Source of the DNA: Alphaproteobacteria bacterium
GTDB taxonomy: Bacteria > Pseudomonadota > Alphaproteobacteria > Sphingomonadales > Kordiimonadaceae
DNA length: 37,919 bases
NCBI GenBank assembly: GCA_021774775.1
Contig: JAJFIT010000059.1
Location: 1-37,919 of the forward strand
Direction: 5' to 3'
Below, piece after piece: positions 8,620-37,919 of this stretch. Positions within the stretch are counted from its first letter, which is position 1; each line of letters begins with the position of its first letter. A model generated the notes under the pieces. That model made no database searches and was not told where the DNA came from. It was given only the letters and a program-made list of their open reading frames with translations. Made by a program: the position numbers and the translations under genes.

Positions 8620-9957
<1,338 letters not shown>

Positions 9958-10047
9958 CTAGCCTGCAAGGACTACCACTTGATTGCGGACCAATAAAATG
10001 GTCATGATTGGTCAACATTTGAATTTCGCAATCCGAAGGGGTAACTC

Positions 10048-11586
10048 ATGGCTGGAAATCTTAAAGCGATACTGACACTTGGAATGCTATCTATGTCGGC
10101 ACATATCGTTTACGCCTTTGAAAACAACGATGATTATGTGGAGCTGTACCGCCAACAAAACGAATTGCGGATTCTTAATGATTTTAGAGACTTTCTATCT
10201 ATTCGCAACACAGCTGCTCGACCTGACGATCAGCAAAAAAATGCAGAGTGGATCGTTGAGTATATTGGCAAGCGTGGATTTGCATCGGAAATTGTTCGCG
10301 CCGGTGGTGCGCCATATGTAATTGCCGAGAAAACAGTGCCAAGTGCTACAAAAACAGTTTTATTTTATGTACACTTTGACGGCCAGCCGACCATTTCTGC
10401 AAATTGGGCAAGCCCACCATTTACTCCTACACTGCGAACTGGTGCCATCGAAAAAGGCGCACAGGACCTGCTTTGGCCAACAAAAGGCACCCCTATTAAC
10501 CCCGAATGGCGGTTATTTGCGCGTTCTGCAGGTGATGATAAAGCACCTATCATAGGTTTGATGGCAGCGCTGGACGCGATGGAAGCGGCGGGTATATCGC
10601 CGTCGATCAATATTAAATTGATATTGGATGGTGAAGAGGAAAAAGGCAGCCCAACCCTCAATGGGGTTTTAAAAGCTTATGGTGATCGACTGAAAAGCGA
10701 TTTGATTCTATTTTGTGATGCGCCGCTGCATCAAAGCGGTAACCGACAACTTGTATATGGTATGCGCGGGTCCATGACTCTTGAACTTACGGCATATGGT
10801 CCGCTAAGGCCTTTACACAGCGGGCACTACGGTAATTGGGCGCCGAGCCCGAATGATACGTTGATGCGGGCTCTTATCAGCCTGAAAAATGAGGACGGCA
10901 GTATTGCTGTTGAAGGATATTACGGTGACGTGCCACCGCCAAATGCCGCTGAACGCGCAGCGATAGCAGCAATACCGGACATAGACGGGCAATTGAAAAA
11001 GGAACTCGCAATTGCGGAACGGGAGCAGCCCGGCAAGCGGATTGAAGAACTTGTTATGGAACCGGCGATCGTAATCAAAGGGTTTCAAGGCGGCGGTGTG
11101 GAAGGAAAATCCCGTAATATTATCCAGCCAACCGCACAAGCATCAATTAATTTAAGATTGGTGAAAAATCAAACTCCAAGCGGCGTAAAACAAAAAATCG
11201 AGACTCATTTCAAAGCCAAAGGGTATCATATTGTTCGTCGGCAACCTTCGTTGGAAGATCGGCGCGCATACGGTAAGATCCTTAAACTCGATTGGCGGCC
11301 AGGCGCATACGGAGCGTTTAAAACACCGCTGGACGGTGTGGAATCATTAAAGCTAGTTGAAATTCTTAACGCCATTGATGGCAACCCAACCATGCAAACC
11401 CCGACCCTTGGTGGTAGTTTGCCAATTGTTTTGTTTGAAGAAAATCTGGCCGCTCCAATTATCGTTTTGCCGATTGCAAACCACGATAATAACCAGCATG
11501 GGCGAAATGAGAATATCAGGCTGCAAAACCTGTGGGATGCCATCGATATTTATGCGGCAGTGATCGAGAAATACGGGTTAGACTAA
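10048..11586 (+). CDS. Secreted M20-family metallopeptidase
   Basis: N-terminal signal-like segment; M20 metal-ligand blocks VHFDGQP, SAGDDKAP, DGEEEKGSP and C-terminal NHDNNQHGRNE. Confidence 0.88.
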   Translation: MAGNLKAILTLGMLSMSAHIVYAFENNDDYVELYRQQNELRILNDFRDFLSIRNTAARPDDQQKNAEWIVEYIGKRGFASEIVRAGGAPYVIAEKTVPSATKTVLFYVHFDGQPTISANWASPPFTPTLRTGAIEKGAQDLLWPTKGTPINPEWRLFARSAGDDKAPIIGLMAALDAMEAAGISPSINIKLILDGEEEKGSPTLNGVLKAYGDRLKSDLILFCDAPLHQSGNRQLVYGMRGSMTLELTAYGPLRPLHSGHYGNWAPSPNDTLMRALISLKNEDGSIAVEGYYGDVPPPNAAERAAIAAIPDIDGQLKKELAIAEREQPGKRIEELVMEPAIVIKGFQGGGVEGKSRNIIQPTAQASINLRLVKNQTPSGVKQKIETHFKAKGYHIVRRQPSLEDRRAYGKILKLDWRPGAYGAFKTPLDGVESLKLVEILNAIDGNPTMQTPTLGGSLPIVLFEENLAAPIIVLPIANHDNNQHGRNENIRLQNLWDAIDIYAAVIEKYGLD

Positions 11587-11587
11587 A

Positions 11588-12400
11588 TCACCTCGAGGCA
11601 GTTGAGGAGCCGAGCTTGTATTTGTCTTCCAGGCTGTAATACAGCTCGCGCACCCGGTCGACGTAAGTTGGCGACAGGGTATGTCCCATTCCTTTCATCA
11701 TCAATTCTATTTTTGATTGTAGGTCAGCCAGGTTAACGCGTTTTTCATCGACTTCCGGTTCGTAAAGCACCCGGATTTCAGTTTCACTAAGCAGGGCGTC
11801 CAGACGCGGTAACGTCCACATTGAAAATCCCTCTGAGAAACGGCGCATGTCCATCAAGTTATCGCGCAGGTGTCGCCAGGTCATTTGCTGACCGAGTGAG
11901 CGTAGTTCCTGAATGCGCAATCGTAACTGTAAAGACTTGGTATCTCGGTCTTTTGAGAAGGCATAGGTGCGGGCCGCGGCAAAATACTGGGTCGATGCGC
12001 GGTAATCGCCCACCTTTGCTGTTGCATTTGCCGCTGCGATGTTAAGGGTGAGCCTGCGTGAAGCCGGTAAATTTATTGGCTGAAGCTTTAGGGCTAATTG
12101 CCAGGCTTCCGCGACACGTGATTTGTCCTTTCTGCTTGTGGCAGATTTCGCTCGGATAAGCGCTAAATCACGCGCTACCACATTGCTGGTGCCGTAATAA
12201 TGAACAAGGTCAGAGAAGGCCTTCTCAATAGCTCGGTCCCCGTCGAACAGTTTTTCGACGTCGCTGGTACCAGCATATTGTTTGGTTATCTGTGTTGCAT
12301 ACTGCAGGGCGGCGAACGCCCTTTCCTGCCGATCAGCAGAAACGCCTAGCGACGGAAAAAATAGCAAAAACACTGTGGCAACCAGTAATTTTAAGCGCAT
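11588..12400 (-). CDS. Secreted, predominantly helical hypothetical protein (start re-assigned to MRLKLLVA)
   Basis: Signal peptide MRLKLLVATVFLLFFPSLGVSA; body of helical repeat-like sequence, possibly TPR-like. Confidence 0.65.
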   Translation of the reverse strand: MRLKLLVATVFLLFFPSLGVSADRQERAFAALQYATQITKQYAGTSDVEKLFDGDRAIEKAFSDLVHYYGTSNVVARDLALIRAKSATSRKDKSRVAEAWQLALKLQPINLPASRRLTLNIAAANATAKVGDYRASTQYFAAARTYAFSKDRDTKSLQLRLRIQELRSLGQQMTWRHLRDNLMDMRRFSEGFSMWTLPRLDALLSETEIRVLYEPEVDEKRVNLADLQSKIELMMKGMGHTLSPTYVDRVRELYYSLEDKYKLGSSTASR

Positions 12401-12484
12401 AACAACCTCGTTTTGAAAGTCGAACACAAAGCTCAAGTGATAGGCAAACTTTGCAGCCAGCCTGTATCATGTAAAGGTAAATGC

Positions 12485-12505
12485 AAAAAAGGGGCCGAAA
12501 GCCCT
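12485..12505 (-). terminator. Weak candidate rho-independent terminator after pyrG
   Basis: Minus strand reads AGGGCTTTCGGCCCCTTTTTT: 4 bp GGGC/GCCC stem followed by a T tract, about 30 nt downstream of the pyrG stop. Confidence 0.4.
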
Positions 12506-12533
12506 AAATTCAGAATCAAACGATAATTTTCTA

Positions 12534-27508: not shown

Positions 27509-27535
27509 ATTAACAAACTGAGCGTGCAACCACAC

Positions 27536-28936
27536 ATGCCCAAAGTAGTAACACGATTTGCGCCATCCCCAACGGGCTTTCTTCATATTGGAGGAGCGCG
27601 GACGGCCCTGTATAACTGGCTGTATGCGCGCCGCCACGGCGGTTCCTTCCTTCTAAGAATAGAGGATACAGACCGCGCTCGTTCAACAGATGCCGCTATT
27701 GAAGCCATTCTTTCGGGCATGAAATGGTTGGGTTTGGACTGGGACGGCGAAGCCGCTAGCCAATTTGGTCGTGCTGCACGCCACCAAACAGTTGCACAAG
27801 AGATGTTGGCAAGCGGTGCCGCCTATAAATGCTATGCCTCCGCGGAGGAGACTGCAGTCCTTCGGGCGCAGGCGCGTGAAAGCGGTGCGGTATTTCGCGG
27901 CGATATGTGGCGAGACCGCACGCCCGACGCTGAAACAGCCAAACAACCCTATTCTATCCGCATAAAAATGTCCCGGAACGGTGAAACCACGCTCGCCGAC
28001 GAAGTTCAGGGCGCAGTTACAGTACAGAACGCCACGCTCGACGATATGATTATCCTCAGGTCGGATGGAACACCAACTTATATGCTTGCAGTTGTCGTTG
28101 ACGACCATGACATGGAAGTAACCCACGTTATTCGCGGTGATGACCACCTTAATAATGCATTCAGGCAAGCCCAGATTTATCGCGCTATGGAATGGGATAT
28201 GCCGATTTATGCGCATATCCCGTTGATTCACGGCGCGGACGGCAAGAAATTATCCAAACGTCACGGTGCGCTGGGTGTCGATGCCTATGCGGAAATGGGC
28301 TTTTTGCCTGCGGCAATGCGAAATTATCTACTGAGGCTTGGCTGGAGTCACGGCGACGATGAAATTATTTCAACTGAGCAAGCGATCCAATGGTTTAACC
28401 TTGATAACATTGGCCGCGGTCCCGCCCGGTTTGACTTTGATAAACTGGATAGTTTGAACGCGTATTACATGCGTCAAATGAATCCGGCTAATATCTTGCC
28501 AATGATCGAAAACGAACTAGAAAATACTATTGAAACTACCCTTTCAAATATTGAAAGAACAAGAATACTGCGCGCCCTGCCCTCGATTGTAGAGCGTGCG
28601 AAACGGTTGCCCGATATTATTGACGCATCAATACTCTATTGTAACATGCGTCCTGTAACGGTGACTGAAAAAGCTGCAAACATGCTTAGTGGACAAGGTT
28701 CACTGGTGCAGGAGGTGGCAAATGAACTGGAAGCTATCACCGACTGGTCTACTGAGGTGATTAAAGCGGCCATTATGTCCTTTGCACAGGCGAAGGATTT
28801 GAAAATGGGCAAGGTAATGCAACCGATCAGAGCCGCTGTTACTGGCGGCGCACCATCCGGTGATCTGGTCGACCTTCTGGAAATACTAGGTCAGAAGGAA
28901 GTGCTTGGTCGTCTCGGCGATCAGGCGGATGCCTAA
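27536..28936 (+). CDS. gltX: Glutamate--tRNA ligase (start re-assigned to MPKVVTRFAPSPTG)
   Basis: RFAPSPTGFLHIGGARTALYNWL, KKLSKRHGALGV (KMSKS-type). Confidence 0.97.
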   Translation: MPKVVTRFAPSPTGFLHIGGARTALYNWLYARRHGGSFLLRIEDTDRARSTDAAIEAILSGMKWLGLDWDGEAASQFGRAARHQTVAQEMLASGAAYKCYASAEETAVLRAQARESGAVFRGDMWRDRTPDAETAKQPYSIRIKMSRNGETTLADEVQGAVTVQNATLDDMIILRSDGTPTYMLAVVVDDHDMEVTHVIRGDDHLNNAFRQAQIYRAMEWDMPIYAHIPLIHGADGKKLSKRHGALGVDAYAEMGFLPAAMRNYLLRLGWSHGDDEIISTEQAIQWFNLDNIGRGPARFDFDKLDSLNAYYMRQMNPANILPMIENELENTIETTLSNIERTRILRALPSIVERAKRLPDIIDASILYCNMRPVTVTEKAANMLSGQGSLVQEVANELEAITDWSTEVIKAAIMSFAQAKDLKMGKVMQPIRAAVTGGAPSGDLVDLLEILGQKEVLGRLGDQADA

Positions 28937-30273: not shown

Positions 30274-30295
30274 TAACGCCGACAATGCCAGACAT

Positions 30296-30325
30296 AAAAA
30301 AGCCGCCCATCGGGGCGGCTTTTTT
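30296..30325. terminator. Bidirectional rho-independent terminator between convergent gltA and fabZ
   Basis: AAAAAAGCCGCCC-ATCG-GGGCGGCTTTTTT: perfect GC stem, tetraloop, A6/T6 flanks. Confidence 0.95.
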
Positions 30326-30344
30326 ATTAGCTAAAATGCACGGC

Positions 30345-30782
30345 TTATTCAGCGCCGAGCATTGCCGTTAATTTGGCTTGAGCGACAAGCTCGTCGTTAA
30401 CATAGGCTTCGGCATCGAATTTCCATACCGCACCGCCGCCGCGTGTTTTACTGACTTTCATATGCAACACATCCCCTGGAACGACAGGCCGCCTGAATTT
30501 GGCACCGTCAATCCCCATGAAATACATGACTTTGCCGCGGGCGCCGTCGCCCAGGAACTGCACCGCGAGCACACCGGCGGTTTGCGCCATTGCTTCAAGG
30601 ATCAACACGCCGGGCATTACCGGCTTTTGCGGGAAGTGACCGGGAAAGAACGGCTCATTGATAGTGACATTTTTAACGCCTGTGGCCGTTTCGCCGGGCA
30701 CGACGTTAATCATTTTATCAACCAGGAGGAATGGATACCGGTGTGGTATCGATTCCATTATGTCAGCAATGGAAAGTTCCAT
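30345..30782 (-). CDS. fabZ: 3-hydroxyacyl-ACP dehydratase FabZ
   Basis: IPHRYPFLLVDK, FFPGHFPQKPVMPGVLILEAMAQTAG. Confidence 0.97.
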   Translation of the reverse strand: MELSIADIMESIPHRYPFLLVDKMINVVPGETATGVKNVTINEPFFPGHFPQKPVMPGVLILEAMAQTAGVLAVQFLGDGARGKVMYFMGIDGAKFRRPVVPGDVLHMKVSKTRGGGAVWKFDAEAYVNDELVAQAKLTAMLGAE

Positions 30783-30811
30783 GGAGCCCCCTTCACAGTC
30801 AGCAGCGTATG

Positions 30812-31492
30812 CTACTGACCATCACCGTCTTTAGCTACCGGCACTTCTGCTGGTGCGCCGTCTTTCGCTGCAGCCGGTTGTTGCAGCAACGTCAGCGTAA
30901 CAGTTGGCAGTGTGTCATCAAGTTGCTCGATGAATTCGGTTGTTACGTCTAGCCCACTGGCAGAACCCATAACCAGACGTTTCCGCATAATAATTTTAGC
31001 ATCACGTTCTTTAAGAATGTTGCGCAAAACCGGCTGACGTGCTCGTTCCACCTGGGTTTGTGCTTCCTGGCGCAAGCGGTCAAAAACCAACTCCAGGCGA
31101 GACAACTGATCCGTTTCGGTCTGGTAGTTCCTGTTAAGGTTAAGACCTTCCTGCTGGAATTCTACTTCTTTTGCTGCAAGCTCTTCTTTATATTTGGTGT
31201 CACCGATGATTGATTTGCGTTGGTCCAAATCAGTTTTGGCGGCTTTTTGCCGGGCTTCAAAGTCCGCGAGGGCTTGCTCGAAGGTGCCGCCGCGCGCCAA
31301 TCGGTTGCGGAGCTGCAGAATTGCTTCCCGAATTTGATTTGTTTGCAAATTAAAATCTTTATAGGCCGCTGCTTCGCGCTCTACCCGCTCATCGTCAATG
31401 ATGAGAATGTCAGCGACGCCCGTTGAAGATATGCCTGTTATCAATAGCAAACCCGTTGCTGCCATTTTGATTTTTTGTGCGATGTTTGCCAT
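30812..31492 (-). CDS. OmpH/Skp-family periplasmic chaperone (start re-assigned to MANIAQK)
   Basis: Signal peptide MANIAQKIKMAATGLLLITGISSTGVA, 'ILIIDDERV' start of the mature domain, long coiled-coil, adjacent to bamA. Confidence 0.87.
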   Translation of the reverse strand: MANIAQKIKMAATGLLLITGISSTGVADILIIDDERVEREAAAYKDFNLQTNQIREAILQLRNRLARGGTFEQALADFEARQKAAKTDLDQRKSIIGDTKYKEELAAKEVEFQQEGLNLNRNYQTETDQLSRLELVFDRLRQEAQTQVERARQPVLRNILKERDAKIIMRKRLVMGSASGLDVTTEFIEQLDDTLPTVTLTLLQQPAAAKDGAPAEVPVAKDGDGQ

Positions 31493-31511
31493 TATTATAC
31501 CCCGTTTACTC

Positions 31512-34118
31512 TTAAAATGTTGTACCGACGTTAAACTGTAACGTCTGGGTTCTATCACCCAATTGTTTCTTTAAAGTCTTCGACAAGTCGATCCGAAATG
31601 GTCCGAAAGGAGATTGCCATGAGAAACCTATACCTACCGCTACCCTTGGTGACGGACTGTCTCCCGCAATACAATTTGTACTAAACGGGAAAACAAGATC
31701 TGGGTCGTCAACTGACGCTGCTTCAAAGTTTTCAAACTCCGTCAGAGAAAATTCGCAATTGGGAGTATCACTAATTTGACCGCGGAACAAGGAGCCTGCA
31801 TCAATAAAGATCGATGCGTTAATTCCTGATTCCAGCGCGGCGTCGCCCAGCGGGAAGAACAGCTCTGCCCGACCTATGTAGAATGCGGTTCCGCCGAGTG
31901 AACTTGTGCGCCCCGTCGTAGTGCCGGAGAAGTCACGTGGGCCAATGCCTGCGACGTCAAATCCGCGGATACGTGGGCCACCAATATAAAACTTATCCGC
32001 CAGCAAAACTGATTGACCAAGCCCTTCAATAAAGCCACCTTCTGCACTAGCCCTAAAGGTCCATCCAGCCCACGGTGTCCAATAATTGTCTGTATTGACG
32101 CGGGTGCGAAGATATTTTACGTCGCCGCCCAGGCCAGCAAAATCCTGGCTGATAGAGAATGATTTACCGCGTGTAGGTCGAATGAAACTGTTTCTAGTGT
32201 CGGTTCTTAAAGTAACCCCAACGATAGACTGAAACCTGCGTCCGATCGATTCCTGAAACGACCGCCCAAGGCCAACAGCAAGCTCACTGTCCTGAAATAC
32301 GCCATCATCGTTAACATCGAAATCAACCTCGTTAATCGTATCATCGCCGTTGCGGTCAAATCTCTCCAACAGAACCGCATCTTCAATTGGATCACCGGTA
32401 AGTTGTCCGATGATTTGGCCCAAAAAGCTGCCGAATGACGAATTAAGCAAACTACCCGGAATCTGAACATTATCTCTGCGCAATGTATAGCGGGTTGAGA
32501 CCTGCCAATACTCAGATATCGCCGCCCCTGCCCTAAGGGAGAAACCAACTGAATTCTGGTCAAATGCTGCGCCGAAGTTGGAGCTGTCGATTCTGCGGGC
32601 AAAAATGTCAAACCCAGCAGCTACACTTCGACCCAGGAAATAATTCTCGGTGAAGCCCAGGTCAATTTCCTGACGCGTGCCGGAAAGACGAAGGCCCAAC
32701 CGCAGGTCCTGGCCCCTGCCCTGAAAATTCCGTTGCCTCACGGAGAAGTCAAAGATGAAATTCTCCAGGCTGGAGAAGCCTGCACCCAGGTTCAGTTCAC
32801 CGGTGGCCTGTTCTTCAACCGCAACGTCCAATATCAAGCGGTCAGGTTGCGACCCTTGCAATTGTTCGATTTCCACTTCACGGAAGAAATCCAGACGCTG
32901 TAGTCTGTTTTCTGACCGGCTCACCAGCGCAGAGTTAAAGGCATCACCTTCTTGCAGGCGGAATTCCCGGCGAACGACACGGTCCAGAGTAACAACATTG
33001 CCGCGAATATTGATGCGTTCCACATAAACCCGGGGCGCGTCGAGAATACGGAACGTAATTTTAATGGTTCTGTTTTCGCGGTCACGTTCGATCTGTGGGC
33101 GCACATCAACAAATGCATAACCCAAAAGGCCAGCAGCATTTGACAATTGCTCGATTGTTTCTTCGATGGACTCAGCGTTGTAATTCTGTCCTTCGCGCAT
33201 CAACAGAAATGCGCGGAATAGCTGCTCGTTAACGTCTCTGATCTGGCTGTCGATCTCGATTTTACCGAAAGTATATATCTCGCCTTCCTCAACCGTGAAG
33301 GTGATGAAGAAATCTTCGCGGTCAGGGGTCAATTCCGACACCGCCGATACAACCCGAAAATCGGCATACCCTTCATTAAGATAATGCTGCCGCAAAACCT
33401 GTTGGTCATAAGCTAGTCGGTCAGGATCAAAGGTATCATTGGAGGTGAAGAACTTCCACCAGCGTGCCTCCTTGGTCGCCAAAACATCACGCAGGTCTCC
33501 ATCACCGTAAATTTTGTTGCCAAGGAAGTTGATCGAACTGACTTTGGTTTTTGGTCCTTCCTGGATTTCAAAAACAAGGTCAACACGGTTTTGTTCTTGC
33601 TGAACGACTTTGGGTTCAATGATCGCCGCAAAGCGCCCTGACCGTTGATACAAAACCAGCATACGTTGAACGTCGGCTTTAACACGGGCACGAGTGAAAA
33701 CCTGCCGAGGACGTAAGCGAACCTCCTCCGCCAATTCTTCATTGTCCAGCTTCTTATTGCCTTCGAAAATAATTCGATTGATGATCGGGTTTTCAACAAC
33801 CCTAACAATCAAAACACCGCTGCGTTCTGTCAATTCCACATCTGAAAACAGGCCGGTTGCAAACAGGTTTTTCAGGCTAATATCAAGCTGTGCCGGATCG
33901 AAAGGATCGCCTGTGCGTACCGTGAGATATGAGGCGATTGTCTCGGGCTCTACCCGCTCATTTCCGGAAACCGTTACTTGCCGAATTATCGGCAAAGCAG
34001 CTGGTGGTGCTGCGACAGGGCTTTGCTGGGAAAACGCTGGTACGGCGTATAAAAATGAACCCAGAACACCCAACAAAATAATAGCGGGTTTGATCATACG
34101 CATCGGTAATAAACTCAA
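31512..34118 (-). CDS. bamA: Outer membrane protein assembly factor BamA, with loop insertions (start may be a few codons internal)
   Basis: POTRA repeats (VSGNERVEPETIASYL, ...), barrel motifs FSISQDFAGLGGDVKYLRT, GGPRIRGFDVAGIGPRD, SPFGPFRIDLSK. Confidence 0.97.
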   Translation of the reverse strand: MSLLPMRMIKPAIILLGVLGSFLYAVPAFSQQSPVAAPPAALPIIRQVTVSGNERVEPETIASYLTVRTGDPFDPAQLDISLKNLFATGLFSDVELTERSGVLIVRVVENPIINRIIFEGNKKLDNEELAEEVRLRPRQVFTRARVKADVQRMLVLYQRSGRFAAIIEPKVVQQEQNRVDLVFEIQEGPKTKVSSINFLGNKIYGDGDLRDVLATKEARWWKFFTSNDTFDPDRLAYDQQVLRQHYLNEGYADFRVVSAVSELTPDREDFFITFTVEEGEIYTFGKIEIDSQIRDVNEQLFRAFLLMREGQNYNAESIEETIEQLSNAAGLLGYAFVDVRPQIERDRENRTIKITFRILDAPRVYVERINIRGNVVTLDRVVRREFRLQEGDAFNSALVSRSENRLQRLDFFREVEIEQLQGSQPDRLILDVAVEEQATGELNLGAGFSSLENFIFDFSVRQRNFQGRGQDLRLGLRLSGTRQEIDLGFTENYFLGRSVAAGFDIFARRIDSSNFGAAFDQNSVGFSLRAGAAISEYWQVSTRYTLRRDNVQIPGSLLNSSFGSFLGQIIGQLTGDPIEDAVLLERFDRNGDDTINEVDFDVNDDGVFQDSELAVGLGRSFQESIGRRFQSIVGVTLRTDTRNSFIRPTRGKSFSISQDFAGLGGDVKYLRTRVNTDNYWTPWAGWTFRASAEGGFIEGLGQSVLLADKFYIGGPRIRGFDVAGIGPRDFSGTTTGRTSSLGGTAFYIGRAELFFPLGDAALESGINASIFIDAGSLFRGQISDTPNCEFSLTEFENFEAASVDDPDLVFPFSTNCIAGDSPSPRVAVGIGFSWQSPFGPFRIDLSKTLKKQLGDRTQTLQFNVGTTF

Positions 34119-34167: not shown

Positions 34168-35277
34168 CTACAGCGCCATGGAATGCAAGTCATTCAAGGT
34201 CACAAACACCATAAAAATCAGTAAAAATGCCATTCCGGCGACAAAACTGGCTTCTTGAGCCCTTTTACTCAGTGGAGAGCCTTTCACAGCTTCTAAACCA
34301 AAGAATAAAAGATGGCCGCCGTCCAGCACTGGAATCGGCAGCAGATTGACGATTCCAAGGTTCAAAGACAGAATAGCCAGTATCCAAATAAAATCCTGGA
34401 AACTTCGATTAGCGGCTTCGCCGACCATATTTGCAATTCTTGGTGGCCCACCCAGTTCGGTTACCGACCGCAGCCCAATGACAATTTGGCCAAGGGTGGT
34501 AAACATGGTTTTGGTCATCGATGCAGTTTGACGCACGCCTTCACCAAAAGAATCGAGAGGGCCCAGATTAAGCCTGCTGCCAGGAGGTGATGTTACACCC
34601 AGCACTCCGTATGGATATTTGTTGTCAAACCTATCTTCAAAATAGGCAACACCAAGCGTCGCCTGAAAATTCATCACGCGTCCAGCACGTTCAATTTGAA
34701 CTGGAACTTCATAAGACGGCCGCAGCCTTACAATTGGGCCAATGTCATTAAAACGCTCCACAGATTCACCGTTAATGCTGATTATTTTGTCACCGATTTT
34801 CATTCCGGCAGTGCGGGCAGCGGAGGTTTCACTAAAACCTGCGATTATCGGTTCGGAAACCTGAATGCCGTATGTGTACATAAAACCTGCAAAAACCACG
34901 GCAGCAGCCAGTAGGTTGATTGCTGGTCCAGCAAAAACGATCAGTGATTTCTGCCATAACGGCTTGAAATGAAAGCATACCGCTCGCTCTTCTGCGCTCA
35001 ATCCCTCTGGAATATCGCCGGGATTGCTTGCCGCAGTCGCGTCACCGTAAAACTTTACATACCCGCCGATAGGAAAAGCACCTAACTTCCAGCGCATGCC
35101 ATTTTTGTCGGTGCGGCCAAATATTTCCTTGCCCATTCCGATGGAAAAAGTGTCAACCTTTACACCGAACATACGGGCAACAATGAAATGTCCCCATTCA
35201 TGGATGAATACCAATAGCGAAAAGCCACCTAAAAAAGCGACAATGGTAAACAAGATACCTGGAGCTTCGGTTTCCAT
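34168..35277 (-). CDS. rseP: RIP metalloprotease RseP
   Basis: FIHEWGHFIVARMFGVKV zinc motif, PDZ region, NLLPIPVLDGGHLLFF. Confidence 0.97.
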   Translation of the reverse strand: METEAPGILFTIVAFLGGFSLLVFIHEWGHFIVARMFGVKVDTFSIGMGKEIFGRTDKNGMRWKLGAFPIGGYVKFYGDATAASNPGDIPEGLSAEERAVCFHFKPLWQKSLIVFAGPAINLLAAAVVFAGFMYTYGIQVSEPIIAGFSETSAARTAGMKIGDKIISINGESVERFNDIGPIVRLRPSYEVPVQIERAGRVMNFQATLGVAYFEDRFDNKYPYGVLGVTSPPGSRLNLGPLDSFGEGVRQTASMTKTMFTTLGQIVIGLRSVTELGGPPRIANMVGEAANRSFQDFIWILAILSLNLGIVNLLPIPVLDGGHLLFFGLEAVKGSPLSKRAQEASFVAGMAFLLIFMVFVTLNDLHSMAL

Positions 35278-35334: not shown

Positions 35335-36507
35335 TCAGGTCGACATATCCTTAACAATTGCGTCAGACACCGCTCTGGCTTGTTCGTCCATTTCAAACAC
35401 CATTGAAAGGGATTGTGGCGCTTTCATGTCTAGTTTTGTCAGGGCGCTATTCACCACAGACGATATATCCATGAAACCAATTTTCTCACCCAGGAATGCC
35501 TCCACAGCCACTTCATTGGCGGCATTGAGCACGATCGGGGCTGACCCGCCGTTTCTTAGCGCATCCATTGCCTGTTGCAAACAAGGAAACGTGTCGTAAT
35601 CGGGCTCCGCGAAGGTTAACTGACCTATTTCTGCCAATGACAAGCGCTCAACCGGTGCTTCAAGGCGCTCAGGCCACGACATTGCATAGGCAATCGGCGT
35701 GCGCATATCAGGGCTACCCAGCTGTGCCAGAACACTGCCATCTATATATTGCACCATGGAATGAATGACAGATTGTGGGTGCACCAAAACTTCAATTTGG
35801 TCATGGCTTACCGGAAATAAGTGATAGGCTTCAATGACTTCAAGGCCTTTGTTCATCATTGTGGCAGAATCGACAGAAATTTTTCGTCCCATATCCCAAT
35901 TTGGATGCTTAACTGCCTGCTCGGGCGTAACACTTTTAAGGCAATCGGCCCGCTTATCCCAAAATGGACCACCGGACGCGGTCAAAATAATTTTTTCGAC
36001 AGATCGATCTGCGTTGAAATCAAAGACTTGAAAAATAGCGTTATGCTCAGAATCAACCGGTAGAATAGTAGCCCTACTGCGCCGAGCTTCCTCGATCATC
36101 AATTCGCCAGCACAAACGAGACATTCCTTATTGGCCAGGGCAATCGTCGCCCCGCGTTTTATTGCCGCTAAAGTTGGTCTGAGACCCGCAGCGCCAACGA
36201 TCGCTGCCATGACAATCTCTGCATCGGCTTGTGCCGCTTCTATTAGACCGCCCTCACCTGAAGCAACACGAATAGTGGTGCTACTCAGCGCTTCTTTTAG
36301 CTCCAGGAATTTATCTGGATTACCTATTACCGCTAGCTTGGCATTGAATTCAACCGCCAACTTTGCCAGCGCCCGAACGTTTGTATTGGCTGTTATGGCT
36401 ATTACCTTGAACCGTTCAGGGTTTCTGCGCACTAAATCAAGGGTGCTTAGGCCCACCGAACCAGTGGCACCAAGAATGGAGATCGTTTTAGGGTTGGATT
36501 GGTTCAT
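35335..36507 (-). CDS. dxr: 1-deoxy-D-xylulose-5-phosphate reductoisomerase
   Basis: ILGATGSVGLSTLDLV, LANKECLVCAGELM, PVDSEHNAIFQ, SATMMNKGLEVIEAYHLF, HPQSVIHSMV. Confidence 0.98.
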   Translation of the reverse strand: MNQSNPKTISILGATGSVGLSTLDLVRRNPERFKVIAITANTNVRALAKLAVEFNAKLAVIGNPDKFLELKEALSSTTIRVASGEGGLIEAAQADAEIVMAAIVGAAGLRPTLAAIKRGATIALANKECLVCAGELMIEEARRSRATILPVDSEHNAIFQVFDFNADRSVEKIILTASGGPFWDKRADCLKSVTPEQAVKHPNWDMGRKISVDSATMMNKGLEVIEAYHLFPVSHDQIEVLVHPQSVIHSMVQYIDGSVLAQLGSPDMRTPIAYAMSWPERLEAPVERLSLAEIGQLTFAEPDYDTFPCLQQAMDALRNGGSAPIVLNAANEVAVEAFLGEKIGFMDISSVVNSALTKLDMKAPQSLSMVFEMDEQARAVSDAIVKDMST

Positions 36508-37344
36508 TTAATTAGCTGTCTTGCTGAATTGCAGGCTGATCAACACTAGCGCCACGGCGGGCGCCGCGAAAACCAACCCGTCGACACGATCCAGAATGCC
36601 GCCGTGGCCCGGTATAAGGTTGCCGCTATCTTTGGCATTCAATGCTCTTTTCACTGCGCTTTCATAGAGATCACCCATCTGTGCAACGACTGCTACACCC
36701 GCGCCTGCCAGTGCCAGCCAAAACGGTGTACCCAGGCCAAATAACATGGAAATAGCGGCCGAAACTACTGCGGCCAGTACCATGCCCCCGATTAAACCGG
36801 CCCAGGTTTTTTTTGGACTAAGTTTCGGCGCCAGCTTGGGTCCACCAATACCTTTCCCCGCAAAATATCCACCCACGTCCATGGCCCAAACGGCAAAAAA
36901 CAGCCAAATGACGGTTATGCCATTGTCGTCAACGCTTCTGAGCCATGTCAGAGACAATAGAGCGAGCAGGACATAGGCGGTGCCAACATAAGCGTTTGAG
37001 CTGGACGAGCCAATATCGGCTCTTTTTGCCAATTTACCTGGGGGAACAAACACAAGTGCAAATGATGTAGCGAGTAGATAGAGTGCAAACGTCGCAAAAT
37101 GCTCTGCTGCGAGGTAGGTCGCAATTGCGGTTAAAGCTATTACAAAACCAATCTGTGTCTGAACTAAGCCCGTCGACCTGACACCTGTTAATGCACACCA
37201 TTCCTTGAGCATCAGCCATCCACCAACGGCTAACAATGCGAAAAACCACCAGCCGCCCAAATAGACCAGCCCCAGCACTACCGGTAGCAGCGCCAATGCC
37301 GACACAATGCGTTTAAACAGGTTATCTGATAGCCCTAACGGCAT
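36508..37344 (-). CDS. cdsA: Phosphatidate cytidylyltransferase
   Basis: Polytopic; C-terminal '[33 protein letters not shown]' CdsA signature. Confidence 0.95.
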
Positions 37345-37363: not shown

Positions 37364-37919
37364 TCAGGGCCGCGCGCCAAACCGGCGGTCGCGTGACAGA
37401 TAGTCTTCAACCGCGTCCGCAAAGGTTTGGCTAGTGAAATCAGGCCAAAGAACCGGCATGAACAGGAATTCCGCATAGGCGGCCTGCCATAGCAAGAAAT
37501 TGGACAGTCGTTGTTCGCCGCTGGTGCGAATAATCAGGTCCGGGTCCGGGATGCCGTGGGTAAACAAAGCCCGTTCAACACTCTTTTCATCAATGGCTTC
37601 CAGACTCTGCCCTCCTGTCAGTACAGACTTCGCAATAATTTTCGCCGCATGGACAATTTCATCGCGTGATCCGTAGCTCAGAGCAATCACCAGCGTAAGG
37701 CGGCTGTTGTCTTTGGTCTGTTCTTCCGCCGCATCGATCATGTCCTTGATATCGCGGTTGAGCGAGGTTCTCTGGCCGATCACCCGAAGCTTAACGCCTT
37801 CTTTGGACAGCGTACGCACTTCTTTCTTCAGGTACATGCGCAGCAAACCCATAAGGTCGCTGACTTCTTCGGCGGGTCGGTTCCAATTTTCAGATGAGAA
37901 TGCGTATAAAGTCAGGTAG
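37364..37919 (-). CDS. uppS: Isoprenyl (undecaprenyl) diphosphate synthase, N-terminus truncated by window edge
   Basis: The ORF track starts at an internal Met (37852). The frame stays open to the window end, reading LTLYAFSSENWNRPAEEVSDLMGLL..., with downstream ALSYGSRDEI and PDLIIRTSGEQRLSNFLLWQAAYAEF. Confidence 0.95.
   Translation of the reverse strand, partial: YLTLYAFSSENWNRPAEEVSDLMGLLRMYLKKEVRTLSKEGVKLRVIGQRTSLNRDIKDMIDAAEEQTKDNSRLTLVIALSYGSRDEIVHAAKIIAKSVLTGGQSLEAIDEKSVERALFTHGIPDPDLIIRTSGEQRLSNFLLWQAAYAEFLFMPVLWPDFTSQTFADAVEDYLSRDRRFGARP

Follow-up and report, generated by a model that had tools for sequence, protein, structure and literature searches.

Lipid A is usually regarded as an essential hallmark of Proteobacteria. 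The window analyzed here, a stretch of 37,919 nucleotides from a marine member of the Kordiimonadaceae, contains a bamA-ompH-fabZ-gltA locus without lipid A genes, and it raises the question of whether these genes were removed or relocated, and of what lipid would then face outward in the outer membrane.

The bamA-gltA locus

The expected frame is provided by three control loci (L053-L055), taken from the alphaproteobacterial genomes G284, G061 and G052, all of which have LpxC. They read rseP-bamA-(ompH)-lpxD-fabZ-lpxA-lpxI-lpxB, followed by a convergent gltA-gltX, which agrees with the order that the preliminary description had given as typical of many Alphaproteobacteria. All four lpx genes (lpxD, lpxA, lpxI and lpxB) were confirmed by Pfam in G284; for G061 and G052, LpxD and LpxA were confirmed by Pfam and LpxB by genome search. 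The window has the same locus without the lpx genes. Its minus strand runs uppS-cdsA-dxr-rseP-bamA-ompH-fabZ and is followed by a terminator and the convergent gltA, with gltX outward, and the backbone from uppS to bamA is retained together with FabZ, as had been claimed. The features are as follows.

27524-28936, plus strand: gltX, the outer flank common to L053-L055
28987-30273, plus strand: gltA, citrate synthase (Pfam Citrate_synt, 478 bits; same place in L053-L055)
30274-30344: fabZ-gltA junction, the site of lpxA, lpxI and lpxB in lipid A-bearing relatives; contains the bidirectional terminator
30296-30325, bidirectional: terminator, a perfect 13-bp inverted repeat with A6/T6 ends, -21 kcal/mol (direct check)
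30345-30782, minus strand: fabZ, 3-hydroxyacyl-ACP dehydratase, retained (NCBIfam TIGR01750, 192 bits, above cut-off; Pfam FabA)
30783-30811: ompH-fabZ junction, 29 bp, the site of lpxD in lipid A-bearing relatives
30812-31492, minus strand: OmpH-like periplasmic protein, with no family match of its own (position, and a weak tblastn match, 28%, to the Pfam-OmpH protein of L053)
31512-34118, minus strand: bamA (Pfam POTRA, five stretches, and Omp85 barrel)
34168-35277, minus strand: rseP (syntenic homolog in L053-L055)
35335-36507, minus strand: dxr (syntenic homolog in L053-L055)
36508-37344, minus strand: cdsA (reading of the translation, position)
37364-37852, minus strand: uppS (reading of the translation, position)

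The preliminary description had placed fabZ directly after ompH, about 30 bp away and without lpxD, and had reported a perfect bidirectional terminator and a convergent gltA beyond fabZ, without lpxA, lpxI or lpxB. Both claims hold. The bamA-ompH gap measures 19 bp, the next gap is the 29 bp listed above, and no relic of LpxD, LpxA, LpxI or LpxB came up when tblastn was applied to the window and 17 related loci. The hairpin is absent from the output of the terminator scan, probably because its T run sits inside the stem. FabZ would have been retained because fatty acid synthesis needs it.

Comparison with close relatives, which had been suggested as a check, shows that the layout is shared. 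Judged by BamA (65-97% identity), the closest named relatives are Kordiimonas-type genomes, and fabZ follows ompH in the same arrangement in 16 of 17 of their loci; the exception, from Pseudokordiimonas (L012), has ompH with neither fabZ nor gltA as a neighbor. The fabZ-gltA gap is occupied by unrelated genes in some relatives (L005, 10015-10524; L009, 9791-10762; L015, 9883-11424), as is the stretch after ompH in L012 (9232-11358). These inserted genes include a repeat protein with GGxG-type motifs and a sulfotransferase-like protein, among others.

Lipid A and Kdo genes across the order

A genome-wide profile search had also been proposed, with the expectation that intact lpx genes elsewhere would point to simple relocation. 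LpxC above the curated cut-off occurs in none of 81 genomes of the order, comprising 30 of the family (with completeness of 90% or more in 25), 47 further members of the order and 4 more, and a sample of 289 genomes from the class, taken almost entirely outside the order, contains it in 250. One LpxC match in G010 (20.8 bits, residues 20-88) falls short of the curated cut-off and was not counted. LpxB was found in 0 of 34 genomes of the order versus 6 of 6 controls, and WaaA in 0 of 25 family genomes versus 11 of 11 LpxC-containing controls, with weaker WaaA-family matches in two genomes of the order outside the family. The same profiles do recover LpxC, LpxB and WaaA in E. coli, Caulobacter and other controls. 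Neither LpxC nor LpxB was found in the draft genome from which the window comes, in any family genome searched, closed ones included, or in K. gwangyangensis, K. laminariae, K. marina, K. aquimaris and Pseudokordiimonas caeni. The genome-wide searches cover LpxC, LpxB and WaaA, and LpxD, LpxA and LpxI were followed at the locus. Taken together, these sequence data support a model in which the lipid A genes were lost, rather than moved, throughout the order. Because LpxC, LpxB and WaaA are absent from the family genomes searched, the suggestion of an outer membrane that lacks canonical lipid A is very likely correct.

Separately, one genome (G077, 95% complete) gave no LpxC match and yet has WaaA, LPS-type LptFG and LptD, which is probably due to an assembly gap.

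Beyond what the preliminary description had covered lie the order-wide extent of the change, the absence of kdsA from between pyrG and eno, the absence of the LPS-type lptFG pair and a sphingolipid cluster with an lptFG pair of its own. KdsA adjoins pyrG in all ten genomes from outside the order that were fetched at their KdsA gene, a set that includes genomes both with and without LpxC, and eno lies beyond it in seven. In the window, pyrG and eno enclose other genes and kdsA is gone.

9895-12533: pyrG-eno interval without kdsA (control genomes and Pfam)
10048-11586, plus strand: M20 peptidase (Pfam)
11588-12436, minus strand: unassigned 282-aa protein (Pfam search)

Simple loss of kdsA was considered and proved wrong: the Kordiimonadaceae retain KdsA elsewhere in the genome. 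In seven family genomes, kdsA stands beside kdsC, kdsB and a capsule-type gene (PF05159) and not among LPS genes, whereas in the genome of the window a divergent KdsA and a NeuB-family gene both belong to a sugar cluster that adjoins flbT-flaF. Because of these surroundings, Kdo in this family is probably used for capsule or protein glycosylation. Since KdsA is kept in a family without lipid A genes, Kdo genes alone are unusable as a marker of LPS. At L122 (10085-14297) and its syntenic loci in Kordiimonas relatives, the genes form a kdsA-kdsC-kdsB operon that ends in a 687-aa PF05159 protein; Kdo there probably goes into the capsule of a cell that has no lipid A. The sugar cluster (L121, 842-19935, on contig C52 of the same genome as the window) also has two split transketolase-like pairs and an asparagine-synthase-like gene, and probably serves flagellin glycosylation.

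The Lpt exporter and the sphingolipid cluster

Genomes with LPS have the gene order pepA / lptF-lptG-lptD-surA. An LPS-type lptFG lies between pepA and lptD in 9 of 9 such genomes (as lptG alone in G052), and pepA is directly beside lptD, without LPS-type lptFG, in all 24 LPS-negative genomes. The same scar is present in the genome of the window, outside the window itself: pepA adjoins lptD with no lptFG in between. LptD was found in 24 of 25 family genomes and in 21 of 21 other genomes of the order tested, and the copy belonging to this genome (G000:C53:8073-9185) scores 185 bits.

A second type of LptFG is present instead. In a tree of 44 LptF+LptG rows, LPS-type pairs and the pairs of LPS-negative genomes are split at 100/100 by a branch of 1.5, and two genomes that have both LpxC and serine palmitoyltransferase (SPT), G109 and G134, carry one pair of each type. 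In E. coli LptG, K40 and K41 contact the lipid A phosphate and core (PMC6744409). The equivalent positions are mostly Arg in the LPS type and mostly acidic (Asp/Glu) in the second type, a shift that fits a changed cargo without amounting to proof. LptG K34 was tried as a type marker and fails, being acidic in nearly all members of both types; because it does not separate them, only K40 and K41 are taken as a sign of cargo change. As a side observation, two genomes of family f56, G084 and G264, have SPT, and no LpxC, WaaA, KdsA or LptD was found in them; G084 (a single contig, rated 100% complete) is additionally without LptF/G. LptD and second-type LptFG are present in G184 of the same family.

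The SPT query was verified as identical to PDB 2jg2. SPT is present in 55 of 55 genomes of the order tested, at 55-80% identity, and six LpxC-containing controls give matches of at most 39%, the level of paralogs. The SPT of the window's genome is 59% identical to the S. paucimobilis enzyme; it scores 627 bits against NCBIfam SerpalmtaseAlphaP (NF047603), below the cut-off of 670, and 599 bits against SerpalmtaseBetaP (NF047599), above the cut-off of 500. It lies in a cluster (L036) that reads aasR-cerR-acpR-spt / orf324-cerK-duf2141 / lptF-lptG-flippase-like.

L036, 5724-9963: aasR-cerR-acpR-spt (Pfam AMP-binding, Epimerase, PP-binding and Aminotran_1_2)
L036, 12882-15307: lptF-lptG, second type (on its side of the tree split described above)

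The DAGK_cat protein of this cluster is a putative cerK, and the flippase-like gene, which has no family match, is named from its look and position. The arrangement aasR-cerR-acpR-spt / cerK / lptF-lptG is kept in most families of the order and is found, whole or in part, in other LpxC-negative lineages. Beside the lipid kinase, a conserved 324-aa protein (L036, 9972-10946) without a Pfam or NCBIfam match recurs in many LpxC-negative lineages.

Proposed replacement, its possible recurrence and known systems

Judged from the sequences, loss of lipid A is nearly certain, and as the best account of what followed we infer replacement by a sphingolipid carried by the Lpt machine. We are fairly confident that the lineage gave up lipid A, hence LPS as well, and now has sphingolipids as the special outer-leaflet lipid of its outer membrane. 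A phosphorylated or otherwise decorated ceramide would be synthesized at the inner membrane. LptB2 together with the second-type LptFG would extract it and send it across the periplasmic bridge to the original LptD, which would insert it.

Of the two possibilities named in the preliminary description, removal is the one supported. Lipid A genes might lie elsewhere in the genome or in an unassembled part of it, since the source is a draft (2.93 Mb, 259 contigs, 83.6% complete). However, closed and 100% complete relatives also lack LpxC and LpxB, those searched for WaaA lack it as well, and the LPS-type lptFG pair is missing too. Relocation is thereby refuted for LpxC, LpxB and WaaA and is highly improbable overall. 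The retention of LptD, of an LptFG pair and, in the family, of KdsA could instead suggest a divergent, unrecognized lipid A pathway that is still exported by the Lpt machine. This we consider very hard to sustain: three unrelated families (LpxC, LpxB and WaaA) are all absent by profiles that work in controls, the LptFG pair that was kept is the one beside SPT, and KdsA lies beside a capsule-type gene or in the flbT-flaF sugar cluster.

It is also conceivable, but unlikely, that lipid A was lost with no specific substitute, such that phospholipid, ornithine lipid or hopanoid forms the outer leaflet and sphingolipids have a minor or other role. The taxonomic literature gives sphingolipids for Sphingomonadales proper only and not for Kordiimonadales (PMC7179689), and in Rhodothalassium salexigens, which lacks LPS and is a relative by the published tree, plain dihydroceramides make up just a small fraction (PMC11762602). 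Against this, SPT, the carrier protein, the ligase and the reductase occur in all or nearly all members of the order, clustered with a private LptFG pair, and the retained LptD would otherwise be idle.

The association extends beyond the order, where SPT occurs in 20 of 32 LpxC-negative versus 2 of 54 LpxC-positive genomes (Fisher p 2e-9, uncorrected for relatedness; the LpxC-positive set was partly chosen by hand). The LpxC-negative genomes without SPT are mostly small. A proxy tree from the pepA-lptD-surA-pdxA-ksgA region implies about seven changes of LPS state, taken here as losses rather than regains. Because parts of this tree are weakly supported and several rows are LptD only, four changes is a cautious minimum. 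Well-supported sister pairs, among them G162/G052 and G107/G200, differ in LPS state. On balance, we favor the idea that Alphaproteobacteria exchanged lipid A for sphingolipid on several separate occasions, through a modular series of steps that can be repeated. A lineage that had a sphingolipid cluster with its own LptFG would shed its lpx genes along with waaA and the LPS-type lptFG, and LptD would remain as a shared outer-membrane gate. If so, the Lpt bridge would be able to switch between cargoes, with the LptFG pair deciding which one it carries.

An entire order, cultured Kordiimonas type strains among them, is without lipid A genes, and the exchange seems to recur in the class. The natural pairs allow a test of what must change for outer membrane life without LPS, and they bear on whether the Lpt machine can carry sphingolipids, whose transport has been stated to be not known (PMC11324152). 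The findings are also relevant to predicting which environmental bacteria carry endotoxin. LPS-free Sphingomonas-type envelopes and Lpt-like sphingolipid export in Caulobacter are already proposed; what seems to be new, relative to the papers examined, is that the Kordiimonadaceae belong here, that the loci carry such scars, that the exporter pair was swapped and that the exchange recurs.

The Sphingomonas-type outer membrane, which lacks LPS and bears sphingolipids, is known chemically for the Sphingomonadaceae. The Kordiimonadaceae resemble it in having SPT and no lipid A genes (LpxC, LpxB and WaaA genome-wide; LpxD, LpxA, LpxI and LpxB at the locus), and other families of the order, as told apart by kinship codes, likewise have SPT and no LpxC. 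They differ from it in being another family whose sphingolipid genes form one cluster, unlike the scattered genes of S. wittichii and Z. mobilis (PMC11324152), and in that several relatives have a separate kdsA-kdsB-capsule operon. By published description, R. salexigens is also similar, lacking LPS and having SPT and dihydroceramides, and its sphingolipid genes were attributed by the authors to transfer from Sphingomonadales (PMC11762602).

The cluster itself is closest, again by published description, to Caulobacter CC_1168-CC_1152 with lptC2-lptF2-lptG2, for which Lpt-like export of phosphosphingolipids was proposed (PMC11324152): aasR, cerR, acpR, spt, a lipid kinase and lptF-lptG lie in one region in both. 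Caulobacter retains LPS and the LptFG pair that goes with it, whereas the Kordiimonadaceae lost lipid A and the LPS-type pair, and therefore the second pair is the only one left. Lipid A-deficient mutants of Caulobacter are reported to rely on an anionic sphingolipid, which can replace LPS (PMC10331486, PMC13228409). That is a laboratory condition, whereas in the order considered here the lipid A-deficient state is fixed and natural.
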